Source: Argopecten irradians (Eukaryota > Mollusca > Bivalvia > Pectinida > Pectinidae). From it: DNA of 64,000 nt. The translations under genes and the position numbers were made by a program. Under the pieces are notes generated by a model, which worked only from the letters and a program-made list of their open reading frames with translations, ran no database searches and had not been told where the DNA came from. The DNA lies in NCBI RefSeq assembly GCF_041381155.1, contig NC_091134.1, positions 5,136,255-5,200,254 of the forward strand, written 5' to 3'. Positions 8,069-60,351 of this stretch are shown here, one piece after another (position 1 is the stretch's first letter; every line of letters starts with the position of its first letter).

Positions 8069-8280
8069 GGAATATATGCTGCTTTCTTGTCGACGGCTGG
8101 CTGTTTAATATTTGGTAGAGGGAGTTTATAATTTTCGTACTCGGCCAGCTCTCCCGGATAGTCCACGTGTTTTATCTGTTTCGACACACGCTCCTCAGGG
8201 TTAGCGTCGTCAGTACATCGGAACGAGCACGTATCCTGCTTCCCGAAGAGCCAGTAGGTTTTCACTTTTCCTTTGCCCTG
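8069..8280 (-). CDS. Cyclase-like gene, late exon (end of cyclase domain and tail)
   Basis: Acceptor CCTACAG, donor GTAAGT. It begins QGKGKVKTYWLFGKQD, matching the KGKG-x(2)-TYWL end of class III cyclase domains, then a polar tail. It enters in phase 0 while exon 6 leaves in phase 1, so about 27-30 residues (the usual IHVS ... RG segment) lie in an exon I could not find. It leaves in phase 2, so at least one more exon follows. Confidence 0.75.
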
Positions 8281-8470
8281 CTGTAGGTTTATAACACATA
8301 CAAGGTTAGTTAAACACCTCGATACTATGAGAAAATTGGAAATGTTTACAAGGATAAACGAATCTTCAACAGTATGCTACAATGATTTAGCACTATAAAA
8401 AGGGCAAGAGTTCCATTACTACATATGGACTCAATACTAACATACTACAGCCTTCCAAAATACGCATGTA

Positions 8471-8548
<78 letters not shown>

Positions 8549-10239
8549 GGCATTACATACACAGACAGGAGGCAGCCCTTCAATGACTATGACTTTAACC
8601 TAATCAACCAACAAACCAATGTTTAGTCCTTCAGTTGAACTAATAATCGGAACTATAAAACACCTTGAGGCGCAACTAACCTTAATTTAGAATAAAATAA
8701 ACAAAATTCTAAAATCATTATGTAAAAATGAAAAAGGACCTAAATCAACCAGAAATATTACTTATTTGTCTGTTGATATTGCATTAAAACATCACTGAAA
8801 GTAGCACCAAGGGTCAATTGTCTGATACATCAGTAGTCATTTCAATTCAAATCTATTTAGACTTTAAATATTGCGCTACGTAACGCCATATGATGTTAAC
8901 ACAGTATCAGTAGGATAGAGGAGTTGAGCATCTAATTTTCAAGTGAGATAAAGCCTGATGTCTTATTCGTGGTAAGTCTATTGACTGGTATTGGAATGGG
9001 TTGAAGTTGGAGATATGTAGCTATAGTGAGAGCCCACACTGAATCAAGCTGGCTAAGGTCTCTATTAAAGGTCGCATGGATAGAATGGTACAATTCGCAG
9101 ATGTTAGTTTTCAATTTCAAAGTTGATTAGCTGCTATATGGACACCATTAAGAAGCGGTCACTAGGATTCGTGATTACGTATGAAGTTGGATATTGAATA
9201 TTGTTTGATAAAACTGTTTTGCTAATGAATACGTTTTGACCTTGCTAAATGAATACTATCTTGAAGTTTTAGGAGTGATACCCTATACAGATCTAGATCG
9301 TTTTAGTACCACAGTAATACCTTTCCAGTGTTAAACTCGTCGTATTTAGTACGTCTTTGCATCAAGTATATCCTTTCTTTTTGCAACACGCTGAAGGAGG
9401 AAAACGTCAAATGAATATGATTGGCTGAAACACAGATTGATACAATTGGCTAAAATACGAAGGAGGAATATGTTAAATGAATATGGTTGACTAAAATACG
9501 AAGGAGGATTACGTCCAATGAATATGATTGGCCAATATACGAAGGAGGAATGTGTCAAATGAATGTGATTGGCTAAAATACGAAGGAGGAATACGTCAAA
9601 TGAATATGATTGGCCAATATACGAAGGAGGAATGGGTAAAATGAATAATGATTGGCTTAAACACGAAGGAGGAATACGTCAAATGAATATGAATTGTTCA
9701 AATACGAAGAAAGAATGTGTCTAATGAATATGATTGGTTCAAATACGAAGGAGGAATGTGTCTAATGAATATGATTGGTTCAAATAAGAAGGAGGAATGT
9801 GTCTAATGAATATGATTGGTTCAAATACGAAGGAGGAATGTGTCTAATGAATATGATTGGTTCAAATACGAAGGAGGAATGTGTCTAATGAATATGATTG
9901 GTTCAAATACGAAGGAGGAATGTGTCTAATGAATATGATTGGTTCAAATACGAAGGAGGAATGTGTCTAATGAATATGATTGGTTCAAATACGAAGGAGG
10001 AATGTGTCTAATGAATATGATTGGTTCAAATACGAAGGAGGAATGTGTCTAATGAATATGATTGGTTCAAATACGAAGGAGGAATGTGTCTAATGAATAT
10101 GATTGGTTCAAATACGAAGGAGGAATACACGAAATGAATATAATTGGTTGAAAAAAACGAAAAATACTTATACTGAACAGATATTATCAAAATTATTATT
10201 GAACTGAATGAATAAGTAAATAAAATAATAAACCGATAA

Positions 10240-10274
<35 letters not shown>

Positions 10275-13200
10275 TACGTCGACTGGAGTTCTTCATCCAG
10301 AATGCCTTTTTAACCATTTCTCCGAAAATCAAATACCTGGGTATTTTCTTCCCGATAATGCCAGACATTACTGAACCTAGATAAATATATAAATCAATAT
10401 ACAATTTAAAAGCACAGATTTGAAAAATCAAAATATTTGATATAACTTACGCTATAACATCACATAAATCTGTTATAATTAATTGTCTCTTTGTTTCTGG
10501 CTTTCTGATTGGCCTATTCATTTTTTTTTATTCCACGATGAAAAAAAATCCGAGAAAGGCGCGGAAACCCGATGTTATCGTGTATGCTACGCGGATTCAC
10601 ACAGTTTGCAAACAAAATTTCTTTCATACCCCGATGAAATAAAAAAAAAAATAGTGACTTCAATGCTTAAATGAAATCGGTTTTAACAAAATGAAATAAT
10701 TATCTTACCCGTGTTGATTCCAATTTTCAGTTGCACTGGTCCAAAGTCCGCCAGAATGAATTGTTTCTCGTGAACCAGTTGGAGTAATTCTAAGGAAATA
10801 TCTGCGATGGTCGACATGTGTCTATCATCTTCTCGCCCTGTCATACCTGTTACAGATTACGGAGTACTGAGTAGGAGTACATTAAGGGAGATAACTCAAT
10901 CAAGTGTTATTTATTATAAGACAATAGGAAAATAAAACCCTCATTTAAAGATGACAATCATGATTTATCATTTACTTCTTGATTTTGTGGGAAAGTGAAC
11001 ATATCACAAAGACAAATAAACAAAAATAAATAAATTAATGAACTAATCAATTAAAAAATGAAAATAAAGGTGTTTTCTGTTTAGAATCATTTCATAGAAT
11101 TCACAGAAAAGAGTTCTAAAATATTTCGCTTGCCCCCATCACCTGTAACCAAAATTTACTGGTTTTGACATATCCTATTTACACACACATTTATGTACCA
11201 TAAAGATTCACACATAATTGATTTCCAATGCTAATTATGCATCTTGTGATTGGCCATTTGTCACTGACCGCTGTGGGACACCGTGCTAGATCTGCATCGT
11301 TTGATTGGTCAAAACCTTGACTAAGCCCGTGAAAAAACCGGGAAACCCCCACTATAGGAACCCCACTTCCGAACTTTAGAAGTCATCTAAGAAAACATTC
11401 AAGAATTAACTACACTTGTATTCATTTATAGTTTAAATCTTCCCTTCAGTCAACTCTATTCTACAACATTTTATGTTTGAAATTTTGGGTGATTTGATTT
11501 AATATCACTTTGCGTCCTGCATATTGTTTTCCTCGTGTTTTGATTGTTGTCCAGAGTGAGGTTATGTATAATATGTTATTTTCACTTCTATGGTGTTGTT
11601 TTCATTAACCTTTGTTAAAATGATCCAAGAAATTTCAAATAATACTCCTTTATTTGAGCCACCCTATTGTTAAGTGTTTATTTCATGAAAATTTGAGCAA
11701 ATGAGCAAACAAGAAGCCTAGAAGCCTTTCTGTATTGGATATTGATAATCAAATTATTTTGTTCTTTAGCAAGACAAAATATGGCTGTTTCGTCCACCAG
11801 GACACGGAAATAATGGCCCGGGACAAACTAATTGAAAGGCGGACACACTATTTTGAAAGACGTCGAATAATAACTTAATAGGAGGCGCCTAAGACTAAAC
11901 CCTCAAATGTAAGGACGAGGTAAGGAGGAAAATATCATTCATTCGATTCTTTTAATTATTATGATGTATGTTATAAATTATATCACATATTTACGGGATG
12001 AAATGACATTTTTGAAGAATGTACTATAAATAGCGCAATTACCTGCCACTATCCTGTTGCTATCCCTAAATATCTGACGTCCTGACTTACCTACCACTAT
12101 CATACTGTTATCCCTAAATGTCTGACGTCATGACTTACCTGCCACTATCATGCTGCTATCCCTAAATGTCTGACGTCCTGACTTACCTGCCACTATCAAC
12201 TGTATCCCTAAATGTCTGCGTCCTGACTTACCTGCCACTATCATGCTGCTTTCCCTAATGTCTACTGACTTACCTGCCATATCATGCTGCTTCCCTAAAT
12301 GTCTGACGTCCTGACTTACCTGCCACTATCATGCTGTTATCCCTAAATGTCTGACGTCCTGACTTACCTGCCACTATCATGCTGCTATCCCTAAATGTCT
12401 GACGTCCTGACTTACCTGCCACTATCATGCTGTTATCCCTAAATGTCTGACGTCATGACTTACCTGCCACTATCATACTGTTATCCCTAAATGTCTGACG
12501 TCCTGACTTACCTGCCACTATCATGCTGTTATCCCTAAATGTCTGACGTCCTGACTTACCTGCCACTATCATGCTGTTATCCCTAAATGTCTGACGTCAT
12601 GACTTACCTGCCACTATCATACTGTTATCCCTAAATGTCTGACGTCATGACTTACCTGCCACTATCATGCTGCTATCCCTAAATGTCTGACGTCTTGACT
12701 TACCTGCCACTATCATGCTGCTATCCCTAAATGTCTGACGTCATGACTTACCTGCCACTATCCACTATCCTAAATGCTGTTATGACACCCTATCCCTAAA
12801 TGTCTGACGTCATGACTTACCTGCCACTACCATGCTGCTATCCCTAAATGTCTGACGTCATGACTTACCTGCCACTATCATGCTGCTATCCCTAAATGTC
12901 TGACGTCCTGACTTACCTGCCACTATCATGCTGCTATCCCTAAATGTCTGACGTCCTGACTTACCTGCCACTATCATGCTGCTATCCCTAAATGTCTGAG
13001 CGTGGAATGCGTCGTTATTTTCCACCAGTTTCTCTATCGCGTTATTGAGATTTGTCAGCAGTTCTACCACTACAGCCGTCGAACAAGACGAGGTGATGGA
13101 ATGGAAGTTATACACATCAAAGAACATCACAGTCATTGATTTGATGTTCTCCGCGTGTCCAATCATGTCCTTTTGAAATTTCTTTGCCACAACCTCCGGG

Positions 13201-16200
13201 ATCATCTGATAGATAAGACCGTTCATCTTCCGGTTCTCCTCGCCAAGTTGTTTTGTTGTAGACACGAGCCTCAATGAGTACCTCTGTATGCTACTGGTAA
13301 GATTGTCAGCAACAAAGATGACAAGCGGACACATGATCAGTACAATGACAAGACAGGATACACTGATCGACAAGTCACGTGTTGAGTCGTCAATGACAAC
13401 GTCAAGCCGACCAATTATTTCAAATCCCAAGTTTTGTTGGATTTTCAACAAAGTGTCAAGGTATAGGGTCATGTTGTCAAACCAATATCGAGCCTTCTGT
13501 ATGTCAGGATGGAATACTTCGCTGTCATAGTGCTGGATTTCAAAACGAAAACCATCGATTATTGCAAGTAGGTCACTGCCAGCTTCACTGACTCCGGATG
13601 TATACAAACGATCAACTCTGTTTGAGTAAAGTTCGGCAGTTTCATAAAATGCACGGAATCTATAAATAACCGTGTTGTACATTTCGAAATAGTTTTGTTT
13701 TGAAACCCTTGTTTCAAATCCTCCCTGCACAAAGAAAAGAGTTCCAAGAGCTCGTTCGATCCCGACGTCCTGTTTTCCGCTTGTTAATTTGAGATAGGCT
13801 ACAAGGGTTTTCCAGACCTTAGCATCTTTCCCGCGCGTTATAGAATCATACAACCAAGCAATCACTACACGGATTATGTTTGTATAGAAGTCAATTTCGA
13901 CCTGGAGATTGTATTTAACTTTAGTCAGGAGCTGCCGATGCCTCACGAGATATTCCCGGAGCCTGTCACGTGATTCGAATTCCTCACGGTTGTCTGTGTC
14001 AAGGTTTCTCGGCCACTCCGACAGGGCGTATATAGCGTTATTGGTACCAATATATTCCTGTAACAAGAATGTTTTGGTTTCCGGTCCCAAAGCGCTCAGA
14101 TAAAGAACACTAGTATCTCTTTCTTGTTGCAGCCGATGGATAAGGTTCCCAAGCTCCACGCTAAGTTGAAGTTCCTTCCGGGTCTGACAATAAATGTTAA
14201 TGTTAATATGGATAAAGCTCGGACCAAAGTTATCTCTTTGAATGTGAATAATGCAGTTCAAATTAGCACAATGTCTTAATAACGACAGTAACAGGAATGA
14301 TATAAGCTAGTTATTTAACAGTATTGGAAGGTACGAAATTCACAATTAAATCAAATGGTAAATAAAAAAAGATGTCATTGGATTTTGATTGAGACGTAGA
14401 ATGCTGTGGTAAAAAGACAAGATTGAGAGTGAAGTAGTTTACCTTTTCGTTTTCCATTTTCTTGTTTATTGTGTCGGTTAGCGAGAAGAGTGTGAAGCCC
14501 ATCAGACTTAGGATAGGTAGTAACGTCAGACATAACATTTTCGTCAGTTGGGACCTCTTACTGGTGTTAAACCCTGAAAATGTACAAAGTTAGAATCACA
14601 GAATTCAAGACTAGTCTTATAATTGCCAGCAACTTGCATGATTTAATAACCATTTATATATAAAAAAAAAGTTTTATGTCATTAAAGGAATTTATTATCG
14701 GGAAGATATTATCAAGCTTTTTGCAATGTTTCAAACTCGTGTGTTACTTTACAGAACGTGGTAATGCTACACAATGTATACCCCAAAATGTTCTTCGATG
14801 AGGTGCTTGGGAATCAGAATAGCAATGTTCCCTGCCTTTGTCAGTATAGGCGAGGTACACTAGATCAGGAACTAAGAACCTCGTTAGGAACCTTGATTTC
14901 ATTGGCGGAATTTGCCGACAGCTTTAGCGAGGTGAACTGTGACCATGGTCTACTTTATAAACATATGACGGAAATCTCGAGCGGTGCATTATCTTCAGGA
15001 AATACACGAAATGGGTAAATAAAAGTCCTCAAGACGCCTCATACATACGAGTTAATACCTCTTAATTCGAAATGCGGCGTACAACACAAGTATATCATTT
15101 ATACGAATATACTAATTGTAACCTATATTCAGTTCCTATTGTGTGTTGTTAAAACTACCTACCTGGATGAACAAATTAGCAAATTTTAAATTTAGTCGGA
15201 AACATTTGTTGCAGATGATAACTGACCATTTTTCTTTTGTAGACTTTCCTCCTCAGGTATTTCTTGGTTAGAAAGGACAGGTGATGAAATGCCGACTGCT
15301 TGTTTGGACGGCGACACAGGATCCGCCAAATAGTCATTGTCAGTGGAAGATACAGGACTAAAAATTAATATTGAGTATTGATTCAAGCACTAGAAGATAA
15401 TAGACTAGAAAGAATGAATATTGCATTAATTCCAGCACTGGAAAATATAGGAATAGGACACAGTCACGGAAAGTTTTAAGACTAGAAAGATAAATATTGA
15501 GCAATAATTAAGTCACTCGAAATGGAAATAGAAACAAGGGTTCACCAGCGGTTTGGTCGTGATAAATGAAGGTTGACCAGAGGTTTGGTCGGGATAAATT
15601 AGGGCTGACCGGAGGTTAGGTCGGGAGAAATAAGCCTAAGGTTGACCAGAGGTTTGATCCTGAATTGAGGGTTAATTAGATGTTTGGTCGGTATAAAATT
15701 TAATGAGAGTTGACCAGAGATTTGGTCGGGATAAATGAGGGTTGACCAGAGGTTTGGTTGGGACAAATGAGGGTTGACCAGAGGTTTGGTTGGGACAAAT
15801 GAGGGTTGACCAGAGGTTTGGTTGGGACAAATGAGGGTTGACCAGAGGTTTGGTTGGGACAAATGAGGGTTGACCAGAGGTTTGGTTGGGATAAATGAGG
15901 GTTGACTAGAGGTTTGGTCGTGATAATTGAGAGTTGACCAAAGGTTTGGTTGGGATAAATGAGGGTTGACTAGAGGTTTAGTCGGGACAAAGGAGGTTTG
16001 ACCAGAGGTTTAGTCGGGATAAAGGAGGTTTGACCAGAGGTTTAGTCGGGATAAAGGAGGTTTGACCAGAGGTTTAGTCGGGATAAAGGAGGTTTGACCA
16101 GAGGTTTAGTCGGGATAAAGGAGGTTTGACCAGAGGTTTAGTCGGGATAAAGGAGGTTTGACCAGAGGTTTAGTCGGGATGAATTAGGGTTGACCAGACG

Positions 16201-16784
16201 TTTGGTCAGTGAAGCAGAGTATGACTTGGTGGCCTATTCTGATACAATTTTCATGCTTATACACTTATAAAAACCATTTAGAGTTATAATAAAAACTAGA
16301 TATCTTTATTTAAATTTTTCTTCACAATGTCACAATGTCCCCTTGCATAAAGAAAACACAAAAGCATATTAAGATTAGGAAGAATAACAATAGCTGAAAC
16401 ATGCTAATTTTCCTTTTTTGACAAAATCTGTAACGGAAATTAGACATGGCCGCTTATATAACCATTTTCATTTCATTTTTCATTTATTTCTATTTATTTA
16501 TTTATTTACTTTTTGTTTTTCGAATTTACCATAATGTACCTTACTGGTAAAATATCTCACTAAAGTTGTTTGAAATGATCATATGATAAGGATGATTATG
16601 TGTAAGTAGACCAGTATGGATGACATTGTTCTATCTTGACAAACAAAGTGTTGCCAATGGCCGGTGATTAGAAGTATTACTTCATTAACAGTCTATATAT
16701 AATTCAATTTTTAGCTTTGTCATGTATACAATACAAAACAAAAACATATATTACGTACCCTTTCTTCTTCGTTTTCCTGGCCAT
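8069..16784 (-). CDS. Receptor-type guanylate cyclase-like protein with NIT-type sensor; probable pseudocyclase (gene span)
   Basis: Exons on the minus strand run 16784-16759, 15357-15227, 14573-14443, 14183-12965, 10846-10709, 10376-10278, an unlocated piece, then 8280-8069. All listed junctions are GT-AG and phases agree through exon 6. The predicted protein has a short Ser/Pro-rich cytoplasmic tail. TM1 is at about residues 65-84. An extracellular alpha-helical domain spans about 97-360 and resembles nitrate/nitrite-sensing NIT domains (LIHRLQQERDTSVLYLSALG near its start). TM2 is at about 368-390. A linker with LIYQMIPEVVAKKF leads to a class III cyclase homology domain from about residue 446. 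The two metal-binding Asp positions survive (D452 in MFFD, D496 in TFRDSSMIVAG). The guanine-selecting Glu is Gln (QTFRD for the usual ETIGD), and the Asn and Arg of the NTASR motif are Lys and Trp (KKAFW). I infer that cGMP synthesis is lost or needs a partner subunit. The gene is divergent from the carotenoid oxygenase. Confidence 0.8.
8385..8640 (+). mobile_element. SINE-like repeat copy, 3' part, interrupted by a CA microsatellite
   Basis: It shares CACTATAAAAAGGGCAAGAG, the CTACAG ... CTTCC block, the poly-CA region and the end CCTTCAATGACTATGACTTT / AATCAACCAACAAAC with copies at 32029-32205 and 43640-43830. The internal CA run (8474-8545) has expanded in this copy only. Confidence 0.65.
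8474..8545. repeat. (CA)n microsatellite
   Basis: About 36 uninterrupted CA dinucleotides inside a SINE-like repeat. The related copies have only short CACACAC stretches at this position, so this is a local expansion. Confidence 0.97.
9388..10150. repeat. Minisatellite, 41-bp unit, about 18 copies, in a cyclase-gene intron
   Basis: The unit contains ACGAAGGAGGAATGTGTCTA and ATGAATATGATTGGTTC. Copies from about 9710 to 10120 are nearly identical, while those nearer 9400-9700 are diverged, so expansion was one-sided. The outermost unit abuts a CTCCTTCAG stretch on the minus strand, but I found no exon there with a matching phase. Confidence 0.92.
10223..10272 (-). repeat. Poly(T) tract directly after the exon 6 donor
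   Basis: On the minus strand the exon 6 donor GTAAGTT runs into an almost pure T tract of about 45 nt. U-rich sequence just downstream of a 5' splice site is known to promote U1 recruitment through TIA-1-type proteins. The tract may equally be the A-tail of an old retroposed copy read from the other strand. Confidence 0.8.
10278..10376 (-). CDS. Cyclase-like gene, exon 6 (degenerate catalytic segment)
   Basis: Acceptor ATCTAG, donor GTAAGT, 99 bp, phase 1 to phase 1. It encodes SVMSGIIGKKIPRYLIFGEM then VKKAFWMKNSSR. The family norm here is GVVG-x(3)-PRYCLFGDTVNTASRMES. The Asn and Arg that stabilise the cyclisation transition state are Lys and Trp. The donor is followed directly by poly(T). 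Confidence 0.85.
10709..10846 (-). CDS. Cyclase-like gene, exon 5
   Basis: Acceptor AACAG, donor GTAAGA, 138 bp, phase 1 to phase 1. It encodes GMTGREDDRHMSTIADISLE and on to LKIGINTG, matching the class III cyclase stretch normally read as HAxxIAxMALxLL ... LRIGIHTG. Conservation of this block shows that the downstream half of the domain is retained. Confidence 0.85.
12041..13000 (-). repeat. Exon-boundary minisatellite, 48-bp unit with splice donor, about 20 copies
   Basis: Each minus-strand unit consists of 34 exon bases (CAGACATTTAGGG ... ATAGTGGCAG) followed by GTAAGTCAGGACGT, so each carries a consensus 5' splice site. I count about 20 copies of the donor core. Most units are near-identical; scrambled or shortened copies lie near 12195-12300 and 12750-12810. 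In frame, the unit encodes TFRDSSMIVAGKSGRQ, repeating the strand that holds the second metal-binding Asp. The junction shows short homology (TCAGACATTT) shared by exon and intron. Confidence 0.93.
12965..14183 (-). CDS. Cyclase-like gene, exon 4 (NIT-type domain, TM2, first half of cyclase domain)
   Basis: A 1219-bp exon with acceptor ATTGTCAG and donor GTAAGT at 12964-12963. It encodes about 406 residues: the NIT-type helical sensor, TM2 (SISVSCLVIVLIMCPLVIFV) and the cyclase start up to TFRDSSMIVAG, the point at which class III cyclases read GD-x-YMVVSG. The last 34 bases and the donor are the founder of a 48-bp minisatellite. The frame stays open through about three further units, so the true 3' end may be any of the first few donors, each adding 16 residues. 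Confidence 0.85.
14443..14573 (-). CDS. Cyclase-like gene, exon 3 (first transmembrane segment)
   Basis: Acceptor TTTTCAG, donor GTAAAC, 131 bp. It encodes FNTSKRSQLTK then a hydrophobic run beginning MLCLTLLPILSLMGFTLFSL, flanked by basic residues on the amino side, as expected for a signal anchor with the following domain outside. Leaves in phase 0. Confidence 0.7.
15227..15357 (-). CDS. Cyclase-like gene, exon 2
   Basis: Bounded by acceptor TTTTTAG and donor GTCAGT. The 131 bp encode a polar Ser/Pro/Glu-rich segment (SSTDNDYLADPVSPSKQAVG and on) with no fold signature, predicted to lie in the cytoplasm before TM1. Enters in phase 2 and leaves in phase 1, matching both neighbours. Confidence 0.65.
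15539..16205. repeat. Minisatellite, 32-bp unit, about 20 copies, in intron 1 of the cyclase-like gene
   Basis: The unit contains GACCAGAGGTTTGGTTGGGA followed by CAAATGAGGGTT. A second sub-type with TTTAGTCGGGATAAAGGAGG dominates 15980-16175. Two blocks of near-identical neighbours indicate recent local expansion of different variants. It touches no exon. Open frames across it are a by-product of the repeat. Confidence 0.92.
16206..16758. other. Remainder of intron 1 of the cyclase-like gene
   Basis: AT-rich sequence between the 32-bp minisatellite and exon 1. Nothing recognisable beyond a short TTTA run near 16490-16510. Confidence 0.5.
16759..16784 (-). CDS. Cyclase-like gene, exon 1 (start codon)
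   Basis: ATG at 16784-16782 encodes MARKTKKK and the first two bases of a Gly codon, then donor GTACGT. The basic start suits a cytoplasmic tail of a signal-anchored membrane protein. The start was chosen because the phase joins exon 2 exactly; an untranslated exon upstream is possible. Confidence 0.6.
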
Positions 16785-20432: not shown

Positions 20433-23400
20433 GTATGTGTGTTTGATTGTTTTATGAATAAGAACACGGTATGATATGATGGTCCACGTAACCTTTATGA
20501 CACCATTGTTTTTCCCAATATCATTTGTTCAAACGATTTGAACTTCAAACTTCGGAGGCGTAAGTATAAGTGAGATATTTTGTTGAAAATGATGTAACTC
20601 ATTATTTCATATGATTTCTTTGGCCACCTGGAACTATATGTAATGGATGCATTAATAAGATCTTATAAAAGAAATCTCACTGGAGATTATCTTAAAGAGG
20701 TTATATGGTAATATAATTTGTTTTATATTTTTCAACATTTCTCCATGGATACCTGTATATATGACAATTGGTTTACTATATAAGGGTTGATCCATACAAT
20801 TGAGTTATAAGATTTATAAAAACTAACGACTACATCAATACTGCTTGTGTTCAACCAAAGGCTGCCTCCCGGAGTGGCTCAGTGGTTCGCTGTACCGGAA
20901 TGGACCAGGAATGTACGAGGTCGGCGAATCAAAGATGCTCCATTGGTTTGACGGAATGGCATGTCTTCAGCGCTTCGAAATCCGCGACGGCAACGCCACC
21001 TATATGCGGAAATACATCCAGAGCGAAACCTATCATCAGAACCTCAGCATGAATAGAATTGTGAATACGGAATTCGGTACATATGCAGAGTACCCGGACC
21101 CATGTAAAAAGATATACGAGAAGTAAGTCTAGATTTGTAACGAAGTAGAATACAAACAAATGTATACATAGTTTTCTCATACACAACAAAAGTCCTCTTC
21201 AAAGTGAGAAAACTGATTCAGAGACAAAATGATCAATCACATCCATTTATTATAAAAATAATCATTGTTGAAACAATATTGTCTTATGCATTTTATATTT
21301 TATATTTAAGCTATCCTACATCTTTATCACATGGCAAAGCGTTACACAACGTCTGACAAAGATAACATATTCACATATATAAAAATTGTTTTGTTTGCTT
21401 TCTTCAACGCCAACAGCCACCTGTTCAGCACGAATATATACTATATATATTATATTTGTTTTACTGTTATAATATTGTTATGTGTAATTTATCATTTTTT
21501 CTCAAATTGCTATTTTCTGTTGCCATGGTTTGCAGTGGATTATTCATCTCTGATATTTGTATGAATGTTCGATTCAATTTATTTTAACTAATTTAATTTT
21601 GGGATAAGTTTTATAGATATTAATTTCTGAATTCTATCCTCTATAACAGGATCAACACGTACTACATCCCTAAGACAGACAACACATCAGTAACAGTCTG
21701 GCCGCTTGGTAACCGGATGTTCGTCAGCTCCGAAACAAGCGTCAGCAATGAGGTTGACCCGGATACACTAGAGACTACAGGAAAAGTAGGTTAAAGGTCA
21801 TTTGTTATATTGACGAATCATTTATGGTGCAGTAAAATACAGTAACGGGCGGAGAGACATGAAATATATAAAAAAAAATTCAAATAAACCTCATCTTATT
21901 TTTTATAGCTAGACATCAGTAAAACTCTAAAATTAGATGCCGCCGCTGCGCATGCTCACTGGGAAACGGATGGTACGGTTCATTTTATTGGCTACACATA
22001 CACATCGCATCCCTGCTATTGTCTGTACAAGATCCCAGGTCGTCCAGGTTAGTTCTTACAAGTTCTTATTAATTTTTTTTCATGATACAGGCACACACAC
22101 AATGGTCTAATAGTTTGGACACATGAAATATACATTAATGTCGTGGACAACATTTTATTAATTTGTGTTTGTGGACTGACTGCTGCGTCGAATAAATATC
22201 AGAAAAAAAAAGAAAAAATAATAATTCGTTGATTACAATTATTTGGAAATTGCACACGGGAACCTGAAAAATTATGAATTTTGGGGTCACAACCACACAA
22301 TAAATAACGGTAAAAAGCATGAACACAGTTATTTTATTTATGTATAGGTGGCGCTATGGACATCGGTGACGCCCGGGTGACGTCATCCATTAAGTGTAAA
22401 TGGCCACTGTTTCCTTCCTACTACCACAGCTTTGCGATGACGGAAGACTACTACGTCTTCATAGAACAACCATACGTACTGAATCTCACTAAAGTCGTCA
22501 ACATGGTTAAGACCAAGAATGCCATCATCGACTGTATGGACTTCCGACCGATGAACAAGGTCAGTCAATCATCGCTCTGAGTTATCTCATCTCCAAACAA
22601 TTATTTTTTGAAACTAAAGCAAACTCTTTTTTACAAAGATAGTACATGAAAATTTCAGAGAATAACGATGCTAGATTTATTCATATAATCGAATTTCATT
22701 TTATCAAATGCCTATAGATCATGATATTTTCTTAATTTATTTCATGTAACAGATTGTTTAGTCCTCGGTCTTTATTCTAATGCTAAATTTAAAATTTCAA
22801 TACTCTATAACAACTAAACAAACTTCAAAAATGATATAGTTAACTTCAAATAATTAAAAGTAATGAGATAAGTGTCTTTTTATTTTATACCTTGTCCTAA
22901 TGATTTGGGTCATTTCTTTTGACCTAATGGCAAATGTATCGATGTCTTTGGTTTCAGACGGTGTTCCACATTGTAGACAGACACACGGGCCGGGAAGTAA
23001 ATACAGACTTTGCCTACCACACCGATCCTATGTTTTTCTTCCATCACGCTAACATGTACCAGGAAGGCGGTAGGTACAACTGTACTATAACAATGTACCA
23101 GGAAGGCGGTAGGTACAACTGTACTATAACAATGTACCAGGAAGGCGGTAGGTACAACTGTACTATAACATGTACCAGGAAGGCGGTAGGTACAACTGTA
23201 CTATAACATGTACCAGGAAGGCGGTAGGTACAACTACTATAACAATGTACCAGGAAGGCGGTAGGTACAACTGTACTATAACAATGTACCAGGAAGGCGG
23301 TAGGTACAACTGTACTATAACAATGTACCAGGAAGGCGGTAGGTACAACTGTACTATAACAATGCACCAGGAAGGCGGTAGGTACAACTGTACTATAACA

Positions 23401-26400
23401 ATGTACCAGGAAGGCGGTAGGTACAACTGTACTATAACAATGCACCAGGAAGGCGGTAGGTACAACTGTACTATAACAATGTACCAGGAAGGCGGTAGGT
23501 ACAACTGTACTATAACAATGTACCAGGAAGGCGGTAGGTACAACTGTACTATAACAATGTACCAGGAAGGCGGTAGGTACAACTGTACTATAACAATGTA
23601 CCAGGAAGGCGGTAGGTACAACTGTACTATAACAATGTACCAGGAAGGCGGTAGGTACAACTGTACTATAACATGTACCAGGAAGGCGGTAGGTACAACT
23701 GTACTATAACAATGTACCAGGAAGGCGGTAGGTACAACTGTACTATAACATGTACCAGGAAGGCGGTAGGTACAACTGTACTATAACATGTACCAGGAAG
23801 GCGGTAGGTACAACTGTACTATAACATGTACCAGGAAGGCGGTAGGTACAACTGTACTATAACATGTACCAGGAAGGCGGTAGGTACAACTGTACTATAA
23901 CAATGTACCAGGAAGGCGGTAGGTACAACTGTACTATAACATGTACCAGGAAGGCGGTAGGTACAACTGTACTATAACAATGTACCAGGAAGGCGGTAGG
24001 TACAACTGTACTATAACATGTACCAGGAAGGCGGTAGGTACAACTGTACTATAACATGTACCAGGAAGGCGGTAGGTACAACTGTACTATACATGTACAG
24101 AAGGCGTAGGTACAACTGTACTATAACATGTACCAGGAAGGCGGTAGGTACAACTGTACTATAACAATGTACCAGGAAGGCGGTAGGTACAACTGTACTA
24201 TAACATGTACCAGGAAGGCGGTAGGTACAACTGTACTATAACATGTACCAGGAAGGCGGTAGGTACAACTGTACTATAACATGTACCAGGAAGGCGGTAG
24301 GTACAACTGTACTATAACATGTACCAGGAAGGCGGTAGGTACAACTGTACTAACATGTACCAGGAAGGCGGTAGGTACAACTGTACTATAACATGTACCA
24401 GGAAGGCGGTAGGTACAACTGTACTATAACATGTACCAGAAGGCGGTAGTACAACTGTACTATAACATGTACCAGGAAGGCGGTAGGTACAACTGTACTA
24501 TAACATGTACCAGGAAGCGGTGTAGGTACAACTGTACTATAACAATGTACCAGGAAGGCGGTAGGTACAACTGTACTATAACAATGTACCACTGTACCAG
24601 GAAGGCGGTAGGTACAACTGTACTATAACATGTACCAGGAAGGCGGTAGGTACAACTGTACTATAACATGTACCAGGAAGGCGGTAGGTACAACTGTACT
24701 ATAACATGTACCAGGAAGGCGGTAGGTACAACTGTACTATAACAATGTACCAGGAAGGCGGTAGGTACAACTGTACTATAACAATGTACCAGGAAGGCGG
24801 TAGGTACAACTGTACTATAACAATGTACCAGGAAGGCGGTAGGTACAACTGTACTATAACAATGTACCAGGAAGGCGGTAGGTACAACTGTACTATAACA
24901 ATGTACCAGGAAGGCGGTAGGTACAACTGTACTATAACAATGTACCAGGAAGGCGGTAGGTACAACTGTACTATAACATGTACCAGGAAGGCGGTAGGTA
25001 CAACTGTACTATAACATGTACCAGGAAGGCGGTAGGTACAACTGTACTATAACATGTACCAGGAAGGCGGTAGGTACAACTGTACTATAACAATGTACCA
25101 GGAAGGCGGTAGGTACAACTGTACTATAACATGTACCAGGAAGGCGGTAGGTACAACTGTACTATAACATGTACCAGGAAGGCGGTAGGTACAACTGTAC
25201 TATAACATGTACCAGGAAGGCGGTAGGTACAACTGTACTATAACAATGTACCAGGAAGGCGGTAGGTACAACTGTACTATAACATGTACCAGGAAGGCGG
25301 TAGGTACAACTGTACTATAAATGTACCAGGAAGGCGGTAGGTACAACTGTACTATAACAATGTACCAGGAAGGCGGAGGTACAACTGTACTATAACAATG
25401 TACCAGGAAGGCGGTAGGTACAACTGTACTATAACATGTACCAGGAAGGCGGTAGGTACAACTGTACTATAACATGTACCAGGAAGGCGGTAGGTACAAC
25501 TGTACTATAACATGTACCAGGAAGGCGGTAGGTACTAACATGTACGTAGTTGTACTATAACATGTACCAGGAAGGCGGTAGGTACAACTGTACTATAACA
25601 TGTACCAGGAAGGCGGTAGGTACAACTGTACTATAAATGTACAGGAAGGCGGTAGTGTACATGTACTATAACATGTACCAGGAAGGCGGTAGTACAACTG
25701 TACTATAACATGTACCAGGAAGGCGGTAGGTACAACTGTACTATAACAATGTACCAGGAAGGCGGTAGGTACAACTGTACTATAACAATGTACCAGGAAG
25801 GCGGTAGGTACAACTGTACTATAACAATGTACCAGGAAGGCGGTAGGTACAACTGTACTATAACAATGTACCAGGAAGGCGGTAGGTACAACTGTACTAT
25901 AACAATGTACCAGGAAGGCGGTAGGTACAACTGTACTATAACAATGTACCAGGAAGGCGGTAGGTACAACTGTACTATAACAATGTACCAGGAAGGCGGT
26001 AGGTACAACTGTACTATAACAATGTACCAGGAAGGCGGTAGGTACAACTGTACTATAACATGTACCAGGAAGGCGGTAGGTACAACTGTACTATAACAAT
26101 GTACCAGGAAGGCGGTAGGTACAACTGTACTATAACATGTACCAGGAAGGCGGTAGGTACAACTGTACTATAACAATGTACCAGGAAGGCGGTAGGTACA
26201 ACTGTACTATAACAATGTACCAGGAAGGCGGTAGGTACAACTGTACTATAACAATGTACCAGGAAGGCGGTAGGTACAACTGTACTATAACATGTACCAG
26301 GAAGGCGGTAGGTACAACTGTACTATAACAATGTACCAGGAAGGCGGTAGGTACAACTGTACTATAACAATGTACCAGGAAGGCGGTAGGTACAACTGTA

Positions 26401-29400
26401 CTATAACAATGTACCAGGAAGGCGGTAGGTACAACTGTACTATAACAATGTACCAGGAAGGCGGTAGGTACAACTGTACTATAACAATGTACCAGGAAGG
26501 CGGTAGGTACAACTGTACTATAACAATGTACCAGGAAGGCGGTAGGTACAACTGTACTATAACAATGTACCAGGAAGGCGGTAGGTACAACTGTACTATA
26601 ACAATGTACCAGGAAGGCGGTAGGTACAACTGTACTATAACAATGTACCAGGAAGGCGGTAGGTACAACTGTACTATAACAATGTACCAGGAAGGCGGTA
26701 GGTACAACTGTACTATAACAATGTACCAGGAAGGCGGTAGGTACAAACTGTACTATAACAATGTACCAGGAAGGCGGTAGGTACAACTGTACTATAACAA
26801 TGTACCAGGAAGGCGGTAGGTACAACTGTACTATAACAATGTACCAGGAAGGCGGTAGGTACAACTGTACTATAACATGTACCAGGAAGGCGGTAGGTAC
26901 AACTGTACTATAACAATGTACCAGGAAGGCGGTAGGTACAACTGTACTATAACATGTACCAGGAAGGCGGTAGGTACAACTGCACTATAACAATGTACCA
27001 GGAAGGCGGTAGGTACAACTGTACTATAACATGTACCAGGAAGGCGGTAGGTACAACTGTATAACATGTACAAAGCGTCAACTGTACTATAACAATGTAC
27101 CAGGAAGGCGGTAGGTACAACTGTACTATAACATGTACCAGGAAGGCGGTAGGTACAACTGTACTATAACAATGTACCAGGAAGGCGGTAGGTACAACTG
27201 TACTATAACATGTACCAGGAAGGCGGTAGGTACAACTGTACTATAACATGTACCAGGAAGGCGGTAGGTACAACTGTACTATAACATGTACCAGGAAGGC
27301 GGTAGGTACAACTGTACTATAACATGTACCAGGAAGGCTGGTAGGTACAACTGTACTATAACATGTACCAGGAAGGCGGTAGTACAACTGTACTATAACA
27401 CATGTACTATACTGTACCAGGAAGGCGTAGGTACAACTGTACTATAACATGTACCAGGAAGGCGTAGGTACAACTGTACTATAACATGTACCAGGAAGGC
27501 GGTAGGTACAACTGTACTATAACATGTACCAGGAAGGCGGAGGTAGTACAACTGTACTACTATAACATGTACCAGGAAGGCGGTAGGCTGTACAACTGTT
27601 ACTAACATGTACCAGGAGCGTGTAACAGGAAGGCGGTAGGTACAACTGTACTATAACATGTACCATGAAGGCGGTAGGTACAACTGTACTATAACAATGT
27701 ACCAGGAAGGCGGTAGGTACAACTGTACTATATCATGTACCAGGGAGGCGGTAGGTACAACTGTACTATAACAATGTACCAGGAAGGCGGTATGTACAAC
27801 TGTACTATAACAATGTACCAGGAAGGCGGAAGGTACAACTGTACTATAACATGTACCAGGAAGGCGGTAGGTACAACTGTACTATAACAATGTACCAGGA
27901 AGGCGGTATGTACAACTGTACTATAACATGTGCTTGATTGTAACACCACAGATTGGTTAGAGCTGCAGTCACCATCGATAGGAATGAATTATTTGACTAA
28001 GTCCAGTAAAGCATTTACGTAAAGCCCACTTACACGTTACATTGACCTGTCGATTTACGCGAAATACTTCGTCGAGGTGAATATATGGCATTCGCAACAT
28101 GAGATGTTGATTCTATTAACTATTCTGTTCTTGCTGATTTAAAGAACAGCGTTTGGCAGTTTTTGGACGTCGGAATTTTCAGCGTTTTCTGAATTTAATA
28201 TATTATCCACCACCAAACCATGGCAGTTTTGTGGCCGCTGGACACTTGTATTGTTTTCTTGCGTCTTGAAATAAATGCATTATGTAAACATTTAACACGG
28301 TGTAGAACAAACAATCTGTACATGTTCACTCTTTTGTTTTACCTCCAGGTAACCTCGTCGTTGACCTTTGTGCGTTTCGAGATGCCCGGATAATGAAACT
28401 GCTATACATAAAAGACCTTCTAAAAGAGTCTTTCCAGGACACCAAATCATGTGAGGAAGTGAAAACATGCCGTCTCCGGCGATATGTTCTCCCACTTAAT
28501 GTTTCAGAGTCGGTAAGTCTTAATGTCATCTATGTTTGAACAAGGAAAAAATCTGTTGATAACTTTTGTGATATTTATGATGTTTGACATGAGCATTCTG
28601 TTGAAGTCATGTTATGCTGTTTTTGTCTAGAAACGATGTTAAAAGATTTTAAATTTTTTTTATATCAAAGACACATTAGAAAAAATACAGAAATAATCGT
28701 CAGAGAGTTCGTCAAATTATTGGATATTTCTCTGATGTTTTTACAGACCCCACTAAATGAGGATCTGGTGAACATCACTGGATGTAGAGCTACCGCTGTC
28801 CGAAGGAATGAGAAAAACATTTTCCTTACTAGCGAGCAGATGTTCAACGAAGGTAATGATAACATGATGCTGCACTATATATATTGTACATAATGAAATG
28901 CTACAAATATACGGTAAACAGAACTGTCTTTGCCAGTTATAACACCTTTTAGATGATTCCTCGACAGAGCAACACAAACAATCTACACATTAAACTTGAA
29001 TTGACCTCCCTAAGGCTGGATATCATGTATAAACAGCTATTGACATTTAAGGATGACCTCTTTGTATGCGATTGTATTTGGGAAGTACGGTATGTTTGTA
29101 CTGTGTCTACATATACTAATGGAAATCTTGTCACTGATAAAGTGCGTTCTAACTGAAGTGTACTACCAAAGACACCAATCAATAAAACTTACTCAGTCAC
29201 ATTATATATACTAATACCGGTAAACCTGTTGTCCTGCTTCCTTTATGATGAACCCGAATACCAAGTATGAGCAGAAACTCCTACTATTATAAACTATTAC
29301 TTGTATCGACCAGGGGACATAACTCAGATGGCTTTATCACAGGAACGAGTGCTCAAATCGAGGCCAAAATTGAGGCGTCAAGTTAGACACGGTTAGGAAA

Positions 29401-38078: not shown

Positions 38079-39245
38079 ATGGAGAACGGAAGCAAAATAA
38101 ACGACTCTGACTTGTTGACTCTGTCTGATACCCAACTTGTTGATCTCATATATCCGCCAGTGTTAATAGTAATGGGAGTCACCTTCAACATCCTCATCGT
38201 TGTTGTCATGCGCACACGTTTCTTCAACGAACAGTCCACTTCCGTTTTTATGACTATGGGAGCGGCCAATGACACATTGGGCCTTTTGGTTTCAATGCTT
38301 TCACATTGGTTATACGTCGTATTTCCTCAAGTCTACAACAAAGAAAAGGCAGGATGGATTTGTAAGTTTCTAGATTTCTATGGATGGGGAAATTGTGATT
38401 TAGGAATATTGATTACTACATCTATGATTGTTGATCGAGCTTTCGCGATCAGCTTTCCTCTTCGAATGGCAAGTGGAAATAACATGAAACGTGCCAAAAT
38501 AACCGTGGCTTGTATGACTTTGATCGTCGTCGCAAAAGAATTCCATTTTCTAATTGGTTCTGACATGGTGGAACCGGATCAAACGGAACGTCTGTGTAAT
38601 GTGGTCACGACAACGGCGACCTATAAATATTTCTGGGAGGTTGTGTGGCCCTGGTTACACTTCTCGTTTCTGTTGGTATGTTTCGCGATCATGACCATCA
38701 GTAATACTATACTGATTTATTTTGTTTGGAAATCCTCGAATAATTTAAACTCCAGAGATTCAAAACATAATCAAAGGTTCACATCATCAGCCAACCTGCA
38801 TCAAAAAGTTGATCAAAAATGGCGGACGATCACTCCGATGTTGATTGGAGAGTCATGCGCATTGCTAATTCTTACATTTCCGTTTACCGTTCAGACGTTC
38901 TTTTCTGAGTATGATCCGACTTTTTACAGAAAAATTCCCAAGAGATTGCTATTTTCCATAACCTTTTACATGCTGTATACCAACAAATGTATAACCTTTA
39001 TAATATATCTAGTGACTGGTTCAAGGTTTCGGCAAGCTCTTAAAGAATCGGCTATCATTTGTTTTTGGGGAAAAAGCGTTATTCGGAAGAAGAGGTTTCG
39101 AGAACATTTCGTCAATAATGTTAACATCTTAAAATCAGTATCAAAGGGAAAAGACGGTTCAAGCATTTCACATAAATCACCCGTTCTATCAAAGCAAAAC
39201 GAACACGACAAGAAGGAACATTCTGCCATAGATACACATTTATGA
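38079..39245 (+). CDS. Class A G protein-coupled receptor, orphan
   Basis: A single uninterrupted 388-residue frame with seven hydrophobic segments. The N-terminus carries two potential N-glycosylation sites (N3, N8). Cys95 (WICKF) and Cys173 (RLCNV) fit the TM3-ECL2 disulphide. The DRY site reads DRAFA (119-123), and the usual CWxP of TM6 is replaced by a TFPF segment. NPxxY is replaced by NKCITFIIY, followed by GSRFRQAL, as in many rhodopsin-type peptide or chemosensory receptors of molluscs. The tail is basic and Ser-rich. A single coding exon is typical of lineage-expanded receptors. The ligand cannot be inferred; a FMRFamide-like peptide receptor relation is possible. The start is the first Met before the glycosylated N-tail. 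Confidence 0.85.
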   Translation: MENGSKINDSDLLTLSDTQLVDLIYPPVLIVMGVTFNILIVVVMRTRFFNEQSTSVFMTMGAANDTLGLLVSMLSHWLYVVFPQVYNKEKAGWICKFLDFYGWGNCDLGILITTSMIVDRAFAISFPLRMASGNNMKRAKITVACMTLIVVAKEFHFLIGSDMVEPDQTERLCNVVTTTATYKYFWEVVWPWLHFSFLLVCFAIMTISNTILIYFVWKSSNNLNSRDSKHNQRFTSSANLHQKVDQKWRTITPMLIGESCALLILTFPFTVQTFFSEYDPTFYRKIPKRLLFSITFYMLYTNKCITFIIYLVTGSRFRQALKESAIICFWGKSVIRKKRFREHFVNNVNILKSVSKGKDGSSISHKSPVLSKQNEHDKKEHSAIDTHL

Positions 39246-44135: not shown

Positions 44136-44512
44136 TTTGAATTCTTTTATTTGTAAAACATGACGTCATAGTACAATGACGTCATAGTAAGATTACGTCA
44201 TGACATGGTACATAAAGATATTGTGAATGGTTCTGGAAGAAAATAACAAAAACATGAGGACGAAATAAAAACTAATATGAAGTTCCTTTGTCCCGTTCTG
44301 AATTTAGCACAGGTTTCAGAAGTTGAATGAAATACATTTCTTTATTTTCTCTTTTTAAAAGATCTGAATTGGACATTTGATATATTGGTAAAATAAAAAA
44401 ATTATCATTAGCACACATATGACAATGTTCGTTTACTGTTAAATATCTGAGATGATCTGTTTTGGTTTGTTGTCGGTGTAATGTAACTATACATTATTAA
44501 TTCCATTCCTGT

Positions 44513-44908
44513 CTAACCAATATACAAATCTGAGCATTTTCTACAAATAAGTGCGTATATGACATTTTTGGATGTACAATTCATATTAGTTTTAATTTTG
44601 AAATTAAAACCATTTTTGAATGTATAATTTTTACACTCTATAATAATATCACATGTTTTGCAACGCTTTTGCATACATTTAGTGACAGAAGTATCTTGCA
44701 TTTTCGAATCAAATTTTGACGCACATAAAATACGTTTAAGGTTTTTAGGCTGACGCTTGCAATTTATTATTTTCTTGTTAGATAAAATCAATTTCATTCT
44801 GTCGCTATTTTTCATGTAATCTTCACAACCTTTTACAATTGGAAAAATGTTGTAGTTGTTTGGATTAAAAGTACTGACAAAAGGTATTATATTGCTTTTG
44901 GATTCCAC
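44513..44908 (-). pseudogene. Penelope-like element, C-terminal coding fragment (left copy)
   Basis: Encodes FNPNNYNIFPIVKGCEDYMK, then KRQPKNLKRILCASKF, CMQKRCKTC and NVIYALICRKCSDLYIG. The order (RQPKNL-R block, Cys cluster, GIY-YIG start) is the linker and endonuclease start of Penelope-like elements. The reverse transcriptase itself is not in the window. The open frame ends just after YIG, whereas the sister copy continues. Confidence 0.8.
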
Positions 44909-45026
44909 TTTATTCGATTTCCTTAAATGAATAGGTCCTTCTTTTTTTTTTTTTTTTTTTCTCTTTCAACTCCATAATCTATAACTTCTTGCGGATAATG
45001 CTGTTTGAGCAGATAAAAAACTAAAA

Positions 45027-45488
45027 CGTATTTTATGTGCGTCAAAATTTGATTCGAAAATGCAAGATACTTCTGTCACTAAATGTATGCAAAAGCGTTG
45101 CAAAACATGTGATATTATTATAGAGTGTAAAAATTATACATTCAAAAATGGTTTTAATTTCAAAATTAAAACTAATATGAATTGTACATCCAAAAATGTC
45201 ATATACGCACTTATTTGTAGCAAATGCTCAGATTTTTATATTGGTCAGACAGGAATGGAATTGAGAAAGAGAGTTACATTACACCGACAACAAACCAAAA
45301 CAGACCATCTCAGATATTTAACAGTAAACGAACATTGTCATATGTGTGCTAATGATAATTTTTTTATTTTACCAATATATCAAATGTCCAATACAGATCT
45401 TTTAAAAAGAGAAAATAAAGAAATGTATTTCATTCAACTTATGAAACCTGTGCTAAATTCAGAACGGGACAAAGGAACTTCATATTAG
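45027..45488 (+). pseudogene. Penelope-like element, GIY-YIG endonuclease fragment (right copy)
   Basis: The frame is open from about 45027 (RILCASKFDSK) through the stop at 45486-45488. It contains CMQKRCKTC, NVIYALICSKCSDFYIGQTG (GIY-YIG core), LRKRV with the catalytic Arg, a CHMC pair and RENKEMYFI with the metal-binding Glu, ending VLNSERDKG. The endonuclease half is thus apparently intact, but without the reverse transcriptase the copy cannot move by itself. Confidence 0.82.
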
Positions 45489-46069: not shown

Positions 46070-46304
46070 GAGTATTTATCTTAAAGTTTGTAAACAGGTC
46101 TACTAGTAAACGTGTAGAGTATTTATCTTAAAGTTTGTAAACAGGTCTACTAGTAAACGTGTAGAGTATTTATCTTAAAGTTTGTAAACAGGTCTACTAG
46201 TAAACGTGTAGAGTATTTATCTTAAAGTTTGTAAACAGGTCTACTAGTAAACGTGTAGAGAATTTATCTTAAAGTTTGTAAACAGGTCTACTAGTAAACG
46301 TGTA
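46070..46304. repeat. Tandem repeat, 47-bp unit, 5 copies
   Basis: Units start at 46070, 46117, 46164, 46211 and 46258, beginning GAGTATTTATCTTAAAGTTT and ending AAACGTGTA. The copies are almost identical; the last begins GAGAATTT. A recent expansion in intergenic DNA. Confidence 0.97.
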
Positions 46305-53762: not shown

Positions 53763-55485
53763 AAGGATGTGTATATTTAAATAATATCTCTTTTTATAAA
53801 TATGTGCAATATATGTATTAAGTTTGATGGAATATTATTTATATGATTAAATATAAATACAATCTGATACATAGCACTTTTTCTTTATTGATACAAGTAT
53901 GTGTTATTAATTATTAACTTTGCTGTCGTTGATAAGATAGCAACAGACAGGTCGTATGCTTCTGAAGCAATTCATAAATCCCTAATGTTTTCGTAGCACA
54001 GTGACGAATTTTACTTGTAATATAAACATCAGATTTAGTTTGAGTTGATCTATATATGCTGTACTGACAGTTTAGCGAGAATCGATATTACGGCCTTTAA
54101 AATCCACTTCACCAAGCACAGATACGATCGTTAATCCTCAGTGTAACAAGATGAAGTTGATCAAGGTCAAACTCGAAGTGAGAGGATGATGTTAAGTATA
54201 CGGTGACTAGTATTGGCTATGTTTTCTTACTCGAAAGTTTTGATTTTGTTACTAAATGGGTACTCTTTGAAAATAAGTATTTAACTGCACATGGAAAAGA
54301 GTAATCTGTGACATCGACATGTTAACCGAATGTAATGTATGAAATGCTGGAAAATCATCGATTTATCTATTATTGCAAAATAAATATTTTACAAAATACC
54401 TCCGTTGATGTGCAATAAACCTTTAATTTGCAGTCAGTATCTCGTCAGTTTTGTGGTATTCATTTAAGCATTGAACGTCTTTCAGTTGGCAAGCTGGACA
54501 CAGGCGATTTAGACAATTTTTTAATTGATAATTTGATACTAATATTGGAATAAGTGTTATTTAAAAAAAATTGTCATTGATTTTGAGTACCTGAAATACA
54601 TGTAGCTTGAAATATCCTATTTGAGGCTGAAAACATTTTGCCATAACTCAAAGCTATCTGCATGTTATGACGAATTTACTTGCTGCAGCTCGCTATCAAC
54701 GGTTAGAAAATTCATCATTACTGATATGGTTGCAATGGTCAGTAGTTGTTCCTTCTTCCGGGATTGAATCATTTGTGATCCAGAAATATAATTATATAAA
54801 TGAATCTTGTAAGATATTTGATTCGGACTGCCAATACAAATCTGTGATAACGCTTTTATGTATTTCAGAATTTTCCAAACGCAAATACAAAATTTTACTT
54901 TTGGAGTGATATGTAGTCCATTATATGATTAACTCGACTTGTGAAAAAGTTTCAAAAGGCGTGTATCGACAGCGATGTTGGGAGGATTTCAATTCAATGA
55001 TAAAAGCTATGTCTTCATTGATCGAAGTGGTGTCATGTTTGGAGATATATTTGATAGGTTTATGGAAGTCTTGGCAGACCTCGTTGACTTATGATGAATA
55101 GTGCTTTGATATCTTGAGATTGAAATAGATATGATATACTGACAGTATTTATCCACCCTTTTACCTATCATGTAAATGTTAACGCAATCTCGAAGTCCAC
55201 TACATATGAACGTAAACGTTTGTTACTCAAGATCTAGCCGAAGCTTATAAGGCGATCCTTCCACGAGAACAACCAAAATGCAAATACAGATAAATAACGT
55301 GTGGAATATAATTTCATACGTTGTTAATACATTGATACTAATGTAAACAAGTATACATTTTTTAAGTTATTCCCCTTTCATCAGATCCGCTCAATGAGTA
55401 GAGTATAGACTACATAAATGATCATTTCATTATAACTATGCTTTGATAAGACACGAGTTTGAAATTTATATTGATGGAACTTCAA
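53763..55485. other. Intergenic DNA downstream of the type II membrane protein gene
   Basis: AT-rich with no supported gene. The start holds the 3' UTR of the upstream gene; no clear AATAAA was pinned down near the stop. Confidence 0.45.
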
Positions 55486-55715
55486 TAACAGTAAGTATTT
55501 TTTGTAACAAGCATCTTCATTGGCTAAATATTGGTTTATTGTATGAAACCTAATGTAAAAAAGTCGGCGTCTATGTTCACGACATCGCCTTAGATACAGA
55601 TAACAGTAAGTATTTTTTGTAACAAGCATCTTCATTGGCTAAATATTGGTTTATTGTATGAAACCTAATGTAAAAAAGTCGGCGTCTATGTTCACGACAT
55701 CGCCTTAGATACAGA
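55486..55715. repeat. Perfect 115-bp tandem duplication
   Basis: 55486-55600 and 55601-55715 are identical by eye, both beginning TAACAGTAAGTATTTTTTGT. Identity suggests a very recent event or an assembly artefact. Confidence 0.95.
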
Positions 55716-60247: not shown

Positions 60248-60351
60248 TAGGTTGCAGTACTTTCAAAATATAATACGAAACTGACGCTGAAACAACAGGT
60301 AGGTTGCAGTACTTTCAACATATAATACGAAACTGACGCTGAAACAATAGA
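60248..60351. repeat. 52-bp tandem duplication
   Basis: TAGGTTGCAGTACTTTCAAA starts at 60248 and again (CAAC for CAAA) at 60300. The two copies differ at a few bases. Confidence 0.9.

Follow-up and report, generated by a model that had tools for sequence, protein, structure and literature searches.

Minisatellites spanning splice junctions in a carotenoid oxygenase gene and a neighbouring guanylate cyclase gene of Argopecten irradians

Results

In three introns of the window (the whole stretch of 64,000 nucleotides from A. irradians that was analysed), a segment of 38–48 bp that crosses a single exon/intron boundary recurs in tandem copies reaching into the intron. These arrays are most probably splice-junction minisatellites, or 'mirages', which would be mostly neutral and in which the outermost site would be used. 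One lies in a carotenoid oxygenase gene. Two further junction-spanning arrays, absent from an earlier note on this DNA, are found in the adjacent guanylate cyclase gene.

The window, with spliced genes of animal families, reads as animal DNA. On the plus strand, the eight first modelled exons of the oxygenase gene encode a protein of the RPE65/BCO family, and more exons lie further downstream; exon numbers start from the first modelled exon. The product matched Pfam PF03055 (RPE65) with an E value of 5.3e-77, and its matches in PDB were RPE65 (E 3.3e-75) and carotenoid isomerooxygenase (E 6.9e-63). A relevance to pigmentation had been proposed for this gene, for which family membership is the basis, and we do not uphold it. 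Exon 6 (22958–23069, plus strand, 112 nt) was placed by spliced translation and by alignment to RPE65. It ends at the first donor, GAA GGC G|GTAGGT, in phase 1, and the codon is completed by exon 7 (28349–28512, plus strand), which begins CAG|GTAACC in the same phase. Across this junction the spliced product aligned to RPE65 without a gap (FHHANMYQEGGNLVVDLC to FHHINTYEDHEFLIVDLC). Intron 6 (23070–28348, plus strand) measures 5279 bp, compared with 123–527 bp for the other six modelled introns of the gene.

The donor array of the oxygenase gene occupies positions 23050–27928 of the plus strand and comprises 126 units, mostly of 38 or 39 bp, which carry the end of exon 6, the 5′ splice site and the start of the intron. 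TRF gave a period of 39 and 126.1 copies, and wraparound alignment gave 126 full units with two partial ends; among these 128 rows, 59 were 39 bp and 47 were 38 bp long. The core of the array was matched 109 times with at most three mismatches, against 0 matches expected from shuffled sequences. Each unit consists of about 20 exon bases (23050–23069), the 5′ splice site and 18–19 intron bases, and the first unit is partly coding. The donor GCG|GTAGGT (GCGGTAGGT; positions −3 to +6) is unaltered in 110 of the 126 units, 115 GTAGGT sites are counted from the authentic donor onward, and, leaving the final A aside, 93 units match the consensus exactly. The earlier note had described a repeated splice donor inside a carotenoid oxygenase intron, with a unit holding the exon end and the 5′ splice site and with mostly identical donors, and it had argued that the phase of exon 7 needs a GGC-G|GT donor; all of this agrees with the copy count, the spliced translation and the gapless alignment. 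Two of its figures have to be revised. The near-identical ladder is real, but the roughly 125 equivalent donors become 110 identical ones among 126 units, and the exonic part of the unit includes the exon end as described, though with about 20 bases and not 17.

Thirty-three of the 126 units deviate from the consensus, by 17 substitutions, 35 deleted bases and 52 inserted bases, with 21 of the 35 deletions located within runs of at least two equal bases. Deviating units make up 13 of the last 15 and 20 of the first 111, the first 15 containing three. The array thus has the pattern of concerted evolution with divergent edge copies, the divergence being at one edge only. The 38- and 39-bp variants are clustered beyond chance (52 runs against 63.6 expected, P 0.023). 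A real array would be expected to show both this clustering and the divergence seen in its last 15 units, and the divergence at the far edge fits ordinary repeat turnover. Long-read consensus error may account for part of the unit deviation, which makes the copy number approximate. Length polymorphism, put forward as probable in the earlier note, is a prediction for this array, whose length comes from a single assembly. Because exon 6 itself carries the 38-bp form of the unit start (TAACATGTACC), this form is suggested to be older than the 39-bp form.

As to the consequence of each donor, only the first three of the 115 GTAGGT sites in the oxygenase gene keep an open frame across exons 7 and 8, with 0, 13 and 26 extra residues; the other 112 lead to a stop, and translation running on into intron 6 reaches a stop codon 246 nt after exon 6 begins. 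The expectation that inner donors add residues or disrupt the frame was therefore correct in general, since later donors lengthen the product or reach a stop, while the more specific figure of 13 residues per unit is right for donors 2 and 3 and wrong for the 112 others. In the cyclase gene, likewise, only donors 1–3 of 20 leave the frame open, with 0, 16 and 32 added residues, and 17 of 20 lead to a stop. The probability of an in-frame position for donors 2 and 3 of both arrays, calculated by hand from unit frequencies, is about 0.13, which is not beyond chance.

Pairing with U1 was predicted at −8.7 kcal/mol for the oxygenase donor, the second of 8 in the gene model (top −9.0), and at −11.8 kcal/mol for the cyclase donor, which is the strongest of 7 in its model and equals the perfect consensus. 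The motif TAG|GTACAA, four bases downstream of the oxygenase donor, was considered as the true donor and rejected; it pairs at −5.5 kcal/mol against −8.7 and leaves the frame open in 1 of 114 copies.

The guanylate cyclase gene (8069–15357, minus strand) lies upstream of the oxygenase gene and has an N-terminal NIT domain (Pfam NIT, E 1.1e-23; Guanylate_cyc, E 5.7e-32). NIT stands for nitrate and nitrite sensing; a heme-NO-binding-associated match fell below the curated cut-off. The large exon that is third in the model (12965–14183, minus strand) ends in MIVAG at CAG|GTAAGT, and the second donor array (12039–12999, minus strand; 21 units of 48 bp) spans this exon end and its donor. A perfect CAG|GTAAGT is present in 18 of the 21 units. 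When the first donor is joined to the next exon (10709–10846, minus strand; acceptor CAG|GTATGACAGG) at 10846, the product reads MIVAG-MTGRED, which is gapless there against the cyclase domain of ANP receptor 1.

The third array (9425–10147, minus strand) repeats an acceptor and exon start. It has about 17 units of 41 bp (TRF, 9445–10126, 16.6 copies), adjoins the cyclase exon at 9321–9424 (minus strand) on its upstream side, and is made mostly of the first approximately 32 bases of that exon together with the acceptor region. The exon start, CCAATCATATTCATTTGACG, matches the array unit, and the junction score was 55, the largest in 200 shuffles being 27. An AG is kept at the acceptor position in five copies including the real one, and only the last, real copy leaves the frame open. 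In 11 of the 18 units numbered 2–19, TTTTAG is replaced by TTTGAA, and these are therefore not acceptors.

All 26 exon edges flanking 13 introns of the two genes were compared with their own introns by local alignment of 30-base edges, with 200 shuffles. Exactly three edges beat all 200 shuffles; no junction copies were found at the other 23 (lowest P 0.075). In the three arrays the tandem units span a true exon–intron boundary, which is the mark of a mirage, and protein alignments support these junctions. Between 8069 and 28860, TRF found four separate arrays longer than 100 bp with units longer than 10 bases, three of which span a junction. The fourth, a 32-bp minisatellite of about 21 units at 15537–16207, lies upstream of the first modelled cyclase exon and spans no identified junction. 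When units were dropped at random in 8069–28860, not wholly exonic and not inside arrays, with 29 junctions, at least three of four arrays fell on junctions with P 0.0007 to 0.0018, and at least two of three with P 0.008 to 0.019 after exclusion of the initially noted array, in a test that was devised after the arrays were seen and on a small sample. The arrays of at least 100 bp at 2497–2835, 46070–46304, 55485–55715 and 60248–60347, where there is no gene model, were left out of this count.

Elsewhere in the window, Rfam and tRNA scans gave 0 and 0 hits, and two of ten further ORFs were matched in Pfam. A single-exon seven-transmembrane receptor is encoded at 38079–39245 on the plus strand (7tm_1, E 1.8e-12). 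Two opposed ORFs at 44516–44965 (minus strand) and 45009–45485 (plus strand) share a stretch that is near-identical by eye, and the latter has a weak GIY-YIG match (E 8.6e-5); similar 16-bp repeats occur around the pair, at 44160 and 45559. We take the pair to be perhaps the remains of a Penelope-like element. At 55485–55715 a 115-bp unit occurs twice with 100% matches (TRF), and this identity suggests a recent duplication.

Discussion

The three arrays are best explained as mirage-type passengers of their introns. Slippage or unequal exchange would have made them grow, and turnover would keep the units alike. Since the real exon sits at the edge of the array, use of the outermost site (the first donor or the last acceptor) would still give the normal protein, and the inner copies would leave with the intron. 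An occasional splice from donor 2 or 3 would lengthen the oxygenase by 13 or 26 residues and the cyclase by 16 or 32; the remaining donors would lead to a stop and presumably to mRNA decay. The arrays would most likely be near-neutral and simply lengthen the intron. Use of the outermost site is deduced from the predicted protein alone, the outermost junctions restoring gapless alignment to RPE65 and to the cyclase domain of ANP receptor 1.

The conservation of the donor bases bears on neutrality. Changes per column were 2.67 at the nine donor positions against 1.83 elsewhere in the oxygenase unit, and 1.0 against 1.62 in the cyclase unit; among circular shifts the donor block ranked 30 of 39 and 21 of 48, respectively. 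Donor bases are thus not clearly better conserved among units, as expected without selection on inner donors. Two observations count against the passenger explanation: within the cyclase unit the donor block has changed a little less than the other positions, although its rank is a middle one, and the presence of three of four arrays on junctions exceeds the random prediction, so that something may favour junctions. A general point also stands against use of donor 1. In test transcripts with identical competing donors, the donor closest to the 3′ splice site is often preferred, and this would point away from the first donor.

The anatomy is that of the mirages of amphioxus, in which RT-PCR is reported to suggest that regular splicing is undisturbed (PMC3087553). 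There, as in A. irradians, the tandem units span the boundary with exon and intron bases, 5′ and 3′ boundaries are both affected, several genes are involved, and the copies at the boundary escape homogenisation. The cases differ in copy number, which is 126 in the oxygenase array and 6 and 3 in two haplotypes of amphioxus BflGb6, and in the kind of evidence: length instability and normal splicing are reported for amphioxus, whereas the present arrays are known from sequence alone. Outside the four long arrays of both genes, the G+C content of the window is 33.9%, which is lower than that of amphioxus. No report using the name mirage outside amphioxus was found among the matches listed, which covered open-licence papers, and a literature search for papers combining minisatellite, intron, splice sites and oyster returned 0. 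The available portions of papers on intron minisatellites in abalone and earthworm do not describe boundary-spanning units. The arrays are a large example of a known, little-studied oddity, whose published precedents the earlier note does not mention, and not a new mechanism.

Other systems are less close. The repeat unit of the human IFI6 gene is about 12 bp long. Two of its downstream units are stated to act as donors, giving three mRNAs (PMC4526556, citing Turri 1995), and PMC2572611 and PMC2915984 also cite this donor minisatellite. As in A. irradians, the units carry donors, and in IFI6 downstream units can serve as such; for IFI6 the use of several donors is reported, and our units measure 38–48 bp. 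The match is partial, although in general terms the two are alike in kind. For UBC and VCX3A, tandem dual-specific splice sites (AGGT) are described (PMC10809524). There, too, copies of a splice motif lie in tandem inside a repeat, but each site is both donor and acceptor within coding repeats, whereas the present intron has its own unique acceptor and the units are, by eye, without a pyrimidine tract before the donor.

The strongest rival is that the donor arrays are active, the copies being used or kept because many U1 sites on one intron would help to define the exon, protect the long intron from early polyadenylation or make longer in-frame isoforms. It agrees with the intact donors in 110 of 126 oxygenase and 18 of 21 cyclase units, with the rank of the array donors (strongest of 7 in the cyclase, second of 8 in the oxygenase), with the open frame at donors 2 and 3 of both arrays and with the reported use of two downstream repeat units as donors in human IFI6 (PMC4526556). 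We nevertheless judge it improbable: conservation of the donor block does not clearly exceed that of the remainder of the unit, a stop follows 112 of 115 donors in the oxygenase and 17 of 20 in the cyclase, and in-frame donors 2 and 3 are unsurprising at a chance of about 0.13. Selection on inner donors is not supported, as the donor block has no clear excess of conservation, and the active competition among donors proposed in the earlier note would find no backing in the sequence for the same reason.

Considerably less likely is that the repeat gave birth to the intron, by tandem duplication of an exon segment bearing AGGT, the unit having once been all coding and the intron lying between two copies. 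Intron gain by tandem duplication is on record (PMC4974935), and a duplication across an exon–intron boundary is common to both, although here there is no good support for the intron itself being new. In the cyclase gene the bases after the donor match the start of the next exon at 10 of 14 positions (P 0.011 to 0.017, gapless). The corresponding matches are 7 of 23 in the oxygenase gene (P 0.68) and 3 of 9 for the acceptor array (P 0.16), and the cyclase likeness reaches P 0.19 when gaps are allowed, fades on extension (P 0.04, 0.08, 0.21) and has P 0.79 for the upstream part alone. Because the oxygenase unit is unlike the next exon and the cyclase likeness is weak, gapless only and fading, birth of the intron from the repeat would not be supported.

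An assembly or sequencing artefact, to which the indel-rich clusters of odd units with many deletions in runs of equal bases might point, is scarcely credible given the unique flanks on either side of the oxygenase array, the clustering of 38- and 39-bp variants (P 0.023), the different units of the three arrays and the concentration of deviating units at one edge. A special RNA structure was also considered and rejected: of six stretches folded, five gave z scores of −0.34 to +0.38, and the acceptor array gave +2.85, less structured than chance.

Mirage-type passengers thus remain the preferred explanation, and the basic phenomenon is already in print, the present case being an extension of it. 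With more than 100 identical donors next to a single exon, the ladder offers a natural test of the choice that the spliceosome makes between equivalent sites; alleles differing in length, should they occur in nature, would turn it into a dose series. The presence of three junction arrays in two genes lying side by side raises the question whether junctions are favoured starting points for minisatellites. Only tentatively, and against our own leaning, we suggest that junctions of either kind, donor or acceptor, may in this genome be hot spots for tandem amplification, and that this could be a common force across the lineage, lengthening introns and making long ladders of equal sites, some with in-frame length isoforms.
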